Notes under the pieces: model-generated
Database searches by the model: none
What the model was told of the DNA's origin: nothing
Seen by the model: the letters and a program-made list of their open reading frames with translations, nothing else
Program-made: the position numbers and the translations under genes
Part shown: positions 9,028-43,140 of the stretch, piece by piece
How positions within the stretch are numbered: the first letter of the stretch is position 1
How the letters are laid out: each line of letters opens with the position of its first letter
NCBI GenBank assembly: GCA_903900335.1
Contig: CAIUMP010000062.1
Coordinates: 124,001 to 188,000, forward strand
Reading direction: 5' to 3'
Source of the DNA: an uncultured Ignavibacteriota bacterium
GTDB taxonomy: Bacteria; Bacteroidota; Ignavibacteria; Palsa-1295
Length of the DNA: 64,000 bases

Positions 9028-9792
9028 ATGACAACCGATTTCACTTTCCAAGACCGAGCCGATAAGAAGAAGTACGTCGAACGCATGTTCGGCCAGATCG
9101 CCCGCCGCTACGATTTCTTCAACCATTTCCTCTCCGTTGGCTTTGATTATAGCTGGCGCCGGCGAGCTATTCAAGTTCTACGCTCACGTTTCCCGAACTC
9201 CCCCACCTCCGCAGGAGGAGGGGGCCGGGGGGTGGATTCCCCCGCGATACTTGACATCGCGTGCGGTACGGGTGATTTAGCATTCGAATCGCTGACGCAG
9301 ATGCCTGGCGCGCAAATCACTGGCATGGATCTCGCCCAACCGATGCTCGATCTCTTTGCGCAAAAGGCGGCGGAGAAACACCTCACGATCACCATCGAAA
9401 AGGGCGACGTGGAAGCTCTGCACTATGCCGACAATTCCTTCGACGGCGCAACAATCGGATTCGGAACGCGTAACTTTACCGACTTGCTCATCGCGTTCAC
9501 GGAGATTCATCGCGTGCTCAAACCGGGAGGCGTCTTCGTCAATCTCGAACTCGCAAAGCCGCGAGCCTTTCCGATGAAGCAGCTTTATCGTTTCTATTTC
9601 GATTCTCTTTTGCCACTTGTGGGGACGCTCTTTTCTCGTCACAACTCCGCATACAAGTATTTACCGGACTCACTCCGCAAGTTTCCCGATCTCGAAGCGC
9701 TTGGCGAAATCATGACCAAAGCGGGTTTCCGCGAGGTGAAGTGGGAGACGCGAACGGCGGGTATCGTGGCAATACACTCTGCGATCAAGTAA
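9028..9792 (+). CDS. ubiE: Demethylmenaquinone methyltransferase (UbiE/MenG) carrying an in-frame palindromic insert
   Basis: Catalyses the SAM-dependent C-methylation that makes menaquinone (and ubiquinone where present). 254 residues. The N-terminal signature (VERMFGQIARRYDFFNHFLSVGFDYSWRR) is followed by SAM motif I DIACGTGDL at 76-84. The conserved DNSFDGATIGFGTRNF and the C-terminal TAGIVAIHSAIK are present. Residues 58-70 (SPTSAGGGGRGVD) are not part of the family. They are encoded by a 39-bp GC-rich palindromic element (9199-9237) inserted just before the motif-I strand, in a likely surface loop, without breaking the frame. The next gene (flippase) starts with GTG directly after the stop codon. 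Confidence 0.93.
   Translation: MTTDFTFQDRADKKKYVERMFGQIARRYDFFNHFLSVGFDYSWRRRAIQVLRSRFPNSPTSAGGGGRGVDSPAILDIACGTGDLAFESLTQMPGAQITGMDLAQPMLDLFAQKAAEKHLTITIEKGDVEALHYADNSFDGATIGFGTRNFTDLLIAFTEIHRVLKPGGVFVNLELAKPRAFPMKQLYRFYFDSLLPLVGTLFSRHNSAYKYLPDSLRKFPDLEALGEIMTKAGFREVKWETRTAGIVAIHSAIK
9199..9237 (+). repeat. 39-bp palindromic element, copy 1 (inside ubiE)
   Basis: Reads TCCCCCACCTCC-GCA-GGAGGAGGGGGCC-GGGGGGTGGAT. Core hairpin is CCTCC-GCA-GGAGG. 36 of 39 bases match the copy at 42926-42964. Two of the three differences are at positions that pair with each other in the hairpin (C9210-G9214 here, T42937-A42941 there), so the pairing is kept. Length is 13 codons, so it preserves the frame. Confidence 0.85.
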
Positions 9793-19742: not shown

Positions 19743-19938
19743 AGCTCCGTTAGGAGCGTTATTTTTGTAGCCGCGTGCGTTAGCGCGGGGTCAACGCGCA
19801 TGTGAATTATTATTAGCTCCGTAGGAGCGAAATATTTCCCGTGGATATTATGCCGCTCCTACGGAGCTATTTGTTCTCTTTGCTTCCACAACCCCCGGCT
19901 CACGCCGGGGGCTACACATATTTCGCTCCTACGGAGCT
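19743..19938. repeat. REP-like cluster: four copies of AGCTCCGTAGGAGCG palindrome
   Basis: Two copies in one orientation (19743-19758, with an extra T; 19815-19829) and two inverted (19853-19868; 19924-19938, CGCTCCTACGGAGCT). Between the inverted pair is a GC hairpin CCCCCGGC-TCAC-GCCGGGGG (19892-19911). A further CCGCG/CGCGG hairpin lies near 19770-19790. These short palindromes are bacterial REP-type repeats. No gene is in 19692-20085. The end of the gap (about 20010-20070) is a G-rich/C-rich stretch resembling a decayed copy of the 39-bp element class. Confidence 0.75.
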
Positions 19939-41973: not shown

Positions 41974-43140
41974 TTATGTCGTTACAAGTTTCTCGATGCC
42001 TTCAACAAACGTATCCCACGAATATTTCTTCTTTTCCTCGATGACGCCAGCGGTTAATTTCTGCTCCATACCTTCATTGAAGAATCGCAGAACGCCCGCC
42101 GTAACCGCTTCGGGCGTTGCCTCATCCATGATAAGCCCACTCTTCTCGTGGATCACCACCTCCGGCAGTCCGCCAACATTCGTCGCGATGACGGGCGTGT
42201 CGAAGTTGTACGCGATCTGAACGATCCCGGATTGCGTCGCGCTTCGGTACGGCAGCACCGTAACATTCGCCGCGCTGAAATACTTTGCGACTTCTTCGTT
42301 CGCGATGTAATCCGTTGCGAGAACAAGATTCTTCTCAGGAATGCCAAGCTCTTTGATGAGAGCGATGTACTCGTCCTTATCTGTGTAATATTCCCCCGCG
42401 ACGATCAACCTAAGCTCCGGCTGCACTTTTAGCATCGCAGGCATTGCGCGGAGGATGATGTCGAGTCCCTTATACTTTCGGATAAAACCGAAGAAAAGAA
42501 TTGCGGGAGCGTCGTCTGGAATTCCGAGCGCGGAACGGGCTTCGCTACGATCCATCCGCTCACCAAATATCTCGTAGATAGGATGCGCGAGCTTGATGTA
42601 CTTCGCAGATGGTGCCACGATGATCAAGTCACGCTCGACAGAATCCGACTGTACGATGAAGTAATCGACTGCGCGGAAAGCGAACTTCGTAAACGCCAGA
42701 TCACCCGGTCGCTTCTCGTGCGGAATGACATTATCCGCGATGAAGATGACTTTGCACTCTTTACCTTGCTTCCGCGTAATGCGTTTTGCAACGCGAGCGA
42801 TTACGCCATATGCCGGAGCAAAGAACGGCAGCCAGAATTTGAAGATGAGGAGATCGGGCTGCTGTTTTGCCGCGATCATCCCGGCCTTGAACCAAGAGAC
42901 GGGATTGACGGAGTCAATCACGGGCTCCCCCACCTCTGCAAGAGGAGGGGGCTGGGGGGTGGATGACCCGGTGGGTTCATCCTGCGACTTGCCCGGAAAG
43001 AGAAACTTCGGATACTGCCGCGAGAACGAGATGATCCCCACCGAATGCCCGCGCTTCTCCAGTGTTCGGTAGAGCAGCGAAACATAGTGCGCGATGCCGC
43101 CGCGAAGCGGAAATGCGGTGCCGATTATGAGGACTTTCAC
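41974..43140 (-). CDS. Glycosyltransferase family 4 carrying an in-frame palindromic insert
   Basis: 388 residues, GTG start at 43140 (MKVLIIGTAFPLRGGIAHY). GT-B fold with ADNVIPHEKRPGD, PAILFFGFIRKYKGLDIIL, EEVAKYFSAANVTVLPYRSATQSGIVQIAYNFDTPVIAT. These features fit GT4 enzymes of exopolysaccharide clusters. Residues ~59-72 (SSTPQPPPLAEVGE) come from a 39-bp palindromic element that is nearly identical to the one in ubiE but read on the opposite strand. It sits in a linker between FPGKSQDE and DSVNPVSWF, where relatives have a short loop. Confidence 0.88.
   Translation of the reverse strand: MKVLIIGTAFPLRGGIAHYVSLLYRTLEKRGHSVGIISFSRQYPKFLFPGKSQDEPTGSSTPQPPPLAEVGEPVIDSVNPVSWFKAGMIAAKQQPDLLIFKFWLPFFAPAYGVIARVAKRITRKQGKECKVIFIADNVIPHEKRPGDLAFTKFAFRAVDYFIVQSDSVERDLIIVAPSAKYIKLAHPIYEIFGERMDRSEARSALGIPDDAPAILFFGFIRKYKGLDIILRAMPAMLKVQPELRLIVAGEYYTDKDEYIALIKELGIPEKNLVLATDYIANEEVAKYFSAANVTVLPYRSATQSGIVQIAYNFDTPVIATNVGGLPEVVIHEKSGLIMDEATPEAVTAGVLRFFNEGMEQKLTAGVIEEKKKYSWDTFVEGIEKLVTT
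42926..42964 (+). repeat. 39-bp palindromic element, copy 2 (inside GT4 gene)
   Basis: Core hairpin CCTCT-GCA-AGAGG. 36/39 identical to 9199-9237. Given on the plus strand, while the host gene runs on the minus strand, so the translated peptide differs completely from copy 1. Confidence 0.85.

Follow-up and report, generated by a model that had tools for sequence, protein, structure and literature searches.

The window analysed here is a 64,000-nucleotide stretch of contig CAIUMP010000062.1 from an uncultured Ignavibacteriota bacterium, and it carries two copies of a 39-bp palindromic element, one within the ubiE/menG methyltransferase gene and one within a gene for a GT4 glycosyltransferase (Table 1). 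Scanning the window with the family consensus returned exactly these two matches, with 0.00 expected by chance. An earlier sequence-only reading had placed the copies at 9199-9237 and 42926-42964; both are real and on the + strand, though the unit as delimited genome-wide starts and ends one base earlier in each case. That reading had also likened the element to Rickettsia palindromic elements (RPEs), and had suggested searching the genome for further copies, testing the stem for covariation, comparing homologues of the host proteins and looking for target-site duplications. We find that the element is one member of a multicopy family whose copies bracket genes for DUF559 (PF04480) proteins in this genome, as analogous repeats do in other phyla. 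This suggests that the repeats are very small mobile elements of an undescribed family and that DUF559 is its likely driver.

Table 1. Features of the two element copies and their host genes (positions in the window)
Feature	Position	Strand	Description and basis
Palindromic element copy 1	9198..9236	+	39 bp, in frame within ubiE, sense; sequence, covariance-model match and family consensus
Copy 1 hairpin 5' arm	9200..9210	+	CCCCC-A-CCTCC; A.A mismatch 9205/9219; pair 9210/9214 covaries across copies
Copy 1 hairpin 3' arm	9214..9224	+	GGAGG-A-GGGGG; loop GCA 9211-9213; sequence and covariation
Copy 1 unpaired linker and tail	9225..9236	+	CC linker and G-rich tail GGGGGGTGGA; tail kept by all copies; family consensus
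ubiE/menG methyltransferase open reading frame (ORF), host of copy 1	9028..9792	+	Site empty in four genus-mates; same loop filled in G008 and G009
Palindromic element copy 2	42925..42963	+	39 bp, in frame within the GT4 gene, antisense to the gene
GT4 glycosyltransferase ORF, host of copy 2	41974..43140	-	ORF reading and alignment of relatives

Three positions distinguish copy 1 from copy 2, and two of these are the partners of a single stem pair (C-G versus T-A). They are read in opposite directions relative to their host genes and yield unrelated peptides, SPTSAGGGGRGVD from the sense reading in UbiE and SSTPQPPPLAEVGE from the antisense reading in GT4. The compensating stem pair and the unrelated peptides together bear out the earlier proposal that structure or DNA, not peptide, is what is conserved.

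A multicopy family with a covarying hairpin

The window copies are far from alone: the genome to which they belong (G000; 4.0 Mb in 62 contigs) holds about 24 full copies of the 39-bp repeat. An 18-nt core has 18 exact matches genome-wide, the hairpin-plus-tail pattern has 25 matches against 0 for the reversed control, and a covariance model recovers 32 matches at E<=0.001. Matches to the same model are also found in genus-mates, with 100 in G005, 42 in G009, 23 in G006, 16 in G010, 10 in G008 and 7 in G007. The family consensus reads [R]CTCCCCC-A-CCTCX-(loop 3-4)-X'GAGG-A-GGGGG-CY-GGGGGGTGG[A/T], in which the stem pair X-X' (pair 13-18) is CG in seven cases, GC in seven and UA in one. The covariation score of 0.143 exceeds that of shuffled alignments (0.059, standard deviation 0.012), with 0 of 500 shuffles as high and structures slid along the sequence scoring no more than 0.041. 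Folding energy is no better than that of dinucleotide shuffles (z -1.1 to 0.3), being unexceptional because the sequence is a C-run followed by a G-run; folding stability was dropped as proof of structure for this reason, and the evidence for the hairpin is the covariation. Membership in a known RNA family was likewise set aside, there being no Rfam match in the five loci searched.

Two further classes are related to the 39-mer. The second (CCCCCGCCTT...AAGGCGGGGG) has G-C in place of the A.A mismatch and T-A in place of one C-G pair. The third (CTCCCCCTCTCCC...) is found in miaB, which holds three C4/G4 palindromes in a row, in frame (locus L066, 1310-1445, G000:C44); the same miaB also bears one 39-mer near its C-terminus.

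In-frame insertion, empty sites and flanks

Gene context was read for 23 copies of the 39-mer, and 19 of these lie in frame inside long genes, 12 in sense and 7 in antisense orientation, with five of the six frames used. The hosts, ten of which were checked for Pfam domains while the remaining names come from our reading of the sequence, are RlmB, Kbl, MazG, XseA, PccB, an amidohydrolase (two copies), MiaB, a VWA protein, a DUF455 protein, a SpoU methylase, a large ATPase-like protein (two), an oxidase with an Fe-S part, a restriction-like protein, a dehydrogenase, a RecQ-DUF559 protein, UbiE and the GT4 glycosyltransferase. Alignments of Kbl with the solved structure 1FC4 and of PccB with 3N6R place the insertion at the element-derived peptide. 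The consensus 39-mer contains no stop codon in any of its six frames and measures 13 codons (39 bp), which lets insertions in permissive loops stay in frame. The genic share is about what near-random insertion plus tolerance would give, since bacterial genomes are mostly coding; the contrast with repetitive extragenic palindromic (REP) sequences is that the 39-mer does not avoid genes.

For both window copies the view that they are insertions keeping the host frame is upheld by comparison with relatives. The UbiE proteins of G005, G006, G007 and G010, as well as those of other genera, align with an empty site at this position. The loop in question, between RxR and ILDIACGTGD, holds one sense copy in G000, one antisense copy in G008 and an inverted doublet in G009, all in frame, which reflects either repeated hits or one ancestral doublet that decayed differently. 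The corresponding GT4 loop is 49 aa long here and 43 aa in most relatives, and its length also varies where no element is present, making this boundary less sharp. Other, longer inserts unlike the 39-mer (KNDELRITGEDENESLRNSQ, TNDKLQMTHGESAASDIRDSSFKIRN) occupy the GT4 loop of G010 and G005 (L226, L229).

Across 37 copies the flanks show preferences, with R at position -1 in 35 of 37 and C at -4 in 23 of 37, and CCC lies within 9 nt downstream of 12 of the 37 (7% background).

DUF559 genes bracketed by the repeat

Repeats bracket both of the two DUF559 matches in the genome. One gene (C61:66323-66640) lies between an inverted pair of 39-mer copies, at 66227-66265(+) and 66670-66708(-). Together with recQ it forms an 875-aa ORF (L064, 1800-4427) in which the element provides the in-frame junction with the RecQ C-terminus, possibly a step toward domestication. 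The second gene (C11:301-615) has a copy of the third class (CTCCCCCTCTCCC...) on either side. Elsewhere in the order, two DUF559 genes of G005 and those of G007 and G009 also sit between inverted copies with their tails inward, and the DUF559 gene of G011 lies between two copies of the same orientation. When 20 DUF559 loci from the order were scanned for hairpins, most proved to be flanked by hairpin-plus-G-tail repeats, in general with one palindrome per locus and with palindromes that differ between loci. Inverted doublets of the repeat are present in G000, G005 and G009.

From its sequence the DUF559 protein is a small nuclease and a relative of the Vsr-like/EDxHD homing endonucleases: its profile matches 3HRL, an endonuclease-like protein, with E 1e-29 and 3R3P, a mobile-intron protein, with E 3e-6, and E, D, E, D, H and D are invariant in the alignment. 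A DUF559-containing gene, discussed in connection with inteins, has been assigned to the EDxHD homing-endonuclease family (PMC9403480).

DUF559-repeat association across phyla

A scan of species genomes with a five-sequence DUF559 alignment, whose sample is biased toward relatives of these five, yielded 80 named loci from Bacteroidota, Chloroflexota, Proteobacteria, Nitrospirota, Verrucomicrobiota, Myxococcota, Planctomycetota, the candidate phyla radiation (CPR) and others. At 33 of 77 loci the DUF559 gene lies between the arms of an exact inverted repeat of at least 12 nt, versus 10 of 228 random positions. Hairpins with G-tails pointing inward are found on both sides of 19/74 DUF559 loci against 2/238 for other ORFs on those contigs (p=2.6e-11), and on the downstream side alone the counts are 32/74 and 8/238 (p=4e-16). 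Similarity between DUF559 proteins goes with similarity between their repeats across 75 loci (Mantel r=0.37, null standard deviation 0.044, 0/5000 permutations), in a test that ignores shared ancestry. Multicopy hairpins are found in distant genomes as well: CCCCTCCTN{3,12}AGGAGGGG has 73 and 75 matches, respectively, in two Hymenobacter genomes, mostly, among the places listed, as doublets about 100 bp apart, 113 in one Pseudomonadota metagenome-assembled genome (MAG) and 36 in one Uhrbacteria MAG (reversed control 0-1 throughout).

Within the window's own phylum, DUF559 is carried by 78 of 148 sampled genomes, and it is present in 20 of the 23 that have the hairpin versus 58 of the 125 that do not (p=4e-4). 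Flanking pairs were found in G100, G152 and G039, and adjacent copies in G168, G090 and G110. Many genomes of the phylum (G165:C11, G134:C1, G081:C12 and others) have a DUF559 domain within a reading frame of about 1080-1480 aa, where it is probably a domain of a larger protein and not a stand-alone mobile gene.

Plasmid-borne DUF559 genes with similar palindromes nearby, some of them one-sided, were found in Deinococcus, Synechocystis, Pseudanabaena, Picosynechococcus, Azospirillum, Photobacterium and Sinorhizobium. Near-identical plasmids of Azospirillum, Picosynechococcus and Synechocystis keep the unit in the close relatives found and offered no clean empty site. In Azospirillum argentinense MTCC4035 (L259), an extra insertion-sequence-like segment of about 1.1 kb lies inside the palindrome upstream of DUF559, and on cyanobacterial plasmids (L242, L244, L245, L246) DUF559 is located beside or inside methyltransferase (DUF1156, PglX) clusters that resemble defence operons.

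Presence and absence of the unit can be followed in the hpa operon of Deinococcus. Strain NW-56 has a DUF559 gene with inverted palindromic ends between hpaE and an oxidoreductase gene; D. proteolyticus has a unit between the oxidoreductase gene and hpaB, with inverted ends reaching about 50 bp; D. wulumuqiensis retains a decayed unit at the oxidoreductase-hpaB junction; and the unit of D. aetherius is located elsewhere. In D. deserti, D. ficus, D. radiophilus and D. radiodurans these hpa junctions are without a DUF559 unit.

Origin of the repeat and alternative explanations

Our preferred reading, which we hold to be fairly probable, is that ubiE has received a solo copy of a short, mobile palindromic repeat belonging to a REP/REPIN-like family (REPINs being inverted REP doublets) driven by a DUF559 nuclease and not by a tyrosine transposase. 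The autonomous unit would measure about 0.5 kb and consist of two inverted hairpin-plus-G-tail copies around a DUF559 gene. The DUF559 protein would recognise hairpin ends that belong to its repeat class and cut there, at the target, or at both, and whole units, gene-less REPIN-like inverted doublets and single repeats would then spread through a transposition-like or break-repair process that leaves no visible target duplication. Solo copies and doublets would thus be non-autonomous forms, or ends, of the DUF559 unit, and the solo copies of the window look like such forms because the same element brackets a DUF559 gene outside it. The data show the linkage, the pairing of classes, the multicopy state, the insertions and the presence or absence of units; we infer that recognition, cutting and insertion chemistry would be supplied by DUF559 and that it would cause the repeats to move. 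On the wider proposition, that DUF559 proteins move palindromic elements across phyla as a mechanistically independent counterpart to the REP-associated tyrosine transposases (RAYTs) of REPINs, and are the source of many orphan C4/G4 hairpins, including those that lengthen proteins in frame, our judgement is evenly balanced.

Several observations weigh against DUF559 as the mover. Repeats occur without DUF559 in several genomes (G006 and G010, and G034 in the phylum set), and the first two of these would need DUF559 loss or mobilisation in trans. Many DUF559 loci have no detectable repeat pair under the strict hairpin-plus-tail criterion, and the Mantel test makes no correction for common descent. 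The G tail of Deinococcus units faces outward, unlike elsewhere, and tail orientation thus differs between lineages. Target-site duplications, which the sequence-only reading had thought worth seeking, were not found, there being no excess of 2-5 nt direct repeats at the ends of 37 copies. A DUF559 protein has moreover been proposed to act in mismatch repair, from work on Caulobacter cells lacking a cytosine methylase, whose DNA-damage response depends on it (PMC12907096). Finally, no movement was observed.

That a RAYT (Y1_Tnp tyrosine transposase) moves the repeats, with DUF559 a passenger caught between two of them, would fit the resemblance of the palindromes and inverted doublets to REPs and REPINs (PMC3116915), and Y1_Tnp genes occur in 18/18 repeat-bearing genomes tested, leaving no absence to count against such a mover. 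However, the 39-mer does not flank any of the six Y1_Tnp loci in the window's genome (at one of them the flanking repeat is an unrelated one, GCTCCGTAGGAGC), the 39-mer has no GTAG tag, and class-matched bracketing of DUF559 genes in unrelated phyla is left unexplained; we consider this account unlikely. Similarly doubtful in our estimation is that DUF559 is a homing endonuclease spreading by break repair, with palindromes as its recognition sites or scars and solo copies as leftovers of decayed or excised units. The profile similarity to the mobile-intron nuclease 3R3P, the EDxHD assignment of the intein-related DUF559 gene (PMC9403480), the decayed unit of D. wulumuqiensis and the three different occupants of one UbiE loop all agree with this idea, but solo copies and doublets far exceed DUF559 genes in number and lie in unrelated genes, which would require ectopic insertion of gene-less forms.

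Two other explanations fare worse. Membership in the CGTC/RPE superfamily, with a mover yet to be named, accords with the palindromic, in-frame behaviour in several reading frames (PMC10969869, PMC3733652), and to that extent the earlier comparison with RPEs stands; kinship with them was not borne out, however, as both the CGTC and the GTAG tag are missing from the 39-mer, no GTCATTGCGAG-type repeat lies close to the DUF559 genes scanned, and the 39-mer itself brackets DUF559. This origin, already disfavoured, strikes us as very improbable. Immobile chance runs of C and G, or transcription terminators, might have folding energies equal to shuffles, as seen here, and yet zero matches were expected, the reversed control gave 0, the stem covaries, and intragenic copies are in frame; copy number and empty sites refute this explanation, to which we give next to no credence.

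Relation to known repeat systems

Most REPs carry a GTAG or a CGTC tag, and the GTAG REPs pair with RAYTs, whereas CGTC REPs, which include Rickettsia RPE-4 and RPE-6, have no associated transposase; intragenic REPs have already been described (PMC3733652). The present family shares with GTAG REPs and REPINs its imperfect multicopy palindromes of 20-40 bp and its inverted doublets (PMC3116915, PMC3733652), the bracketing of a single small nuclease/transposase-type gene, the pairing of gene and repeat classes, and occasional intragenic copies. It differs in that the ends of the 39-mer (37 copies) are [R]CTCCCCC...GGGGGGTGG[A/T] with no GTAG, that the linked gene is DUF559 (Vsr/EDxHD-like) and not Y1/HUH, and that 19 of 23 copies are inside genes. 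The doublets of G000, G005, G009 and Hymenobacter resemble REPINs, in which the inverted doublet is the mobile unit. With RPEs and CGTC REPs the family has in common in-frame palindromic inserts in unrelated genes and in several frames, and dimers also occur there (PMC3733652, PMC10969869); however, none of the 37 copies has a CGTC tag, and the 39-mer brackets DUF559 whereas CGTC REPs lack a transposase gene.

EDxHD/Vsr-like homing endonucleases are similar in nuclease sequence (3R3P, E 3e-6) and in their selfish-element context (PMC9403480), but the DUF559 gene has inverted palindromes on its two sides, these have multicopy derivatives that lack the gene, and in the cases studied the gene lies outside introns and inteins. 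Caulobacter VsrA, the protein of the proposed mismatch-repair role, belongs to the same DUF559 family, and our search of that paper turned up no mention of palindromes (PMC12907096). Insertion sequences and miniature inverted-repeat transposable elements (MITEs) likewise have terminal inverted repeats and non-autonomous derivatives, as the DUF559 unit does; the difference is the absence of target-site duplication at 37 copies and of a DDE or HUH transposase in the unit. The family thus works like REP/REPIN-RAYT systems and inserts like RPEs, and by the features tested it belongs to neither.

In the open-access literature searched we found no paper tying DUF559 or COG2852 to palindromic repeats. 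Few repeats in bacteria are as common as short palindromic ones, and some families, such as the CGTC REPs, have no known mover (PMC3733652). If our reading is true, it would provide a cause for many C/G-rich palindromes, a natural substrate for DUF559 and a steady source of in-frame protein insertions.

A different palindromic repeat, GCTCCGTAGGAGCGAAATAT, is present at 19814-19938 of the window in three copies of alternating orientation. It also flanks a Y1_Tnp (RAYT) gene at G000:C44:208008, and the window's genome therefore also has an ordinary REP/RAYT pair.
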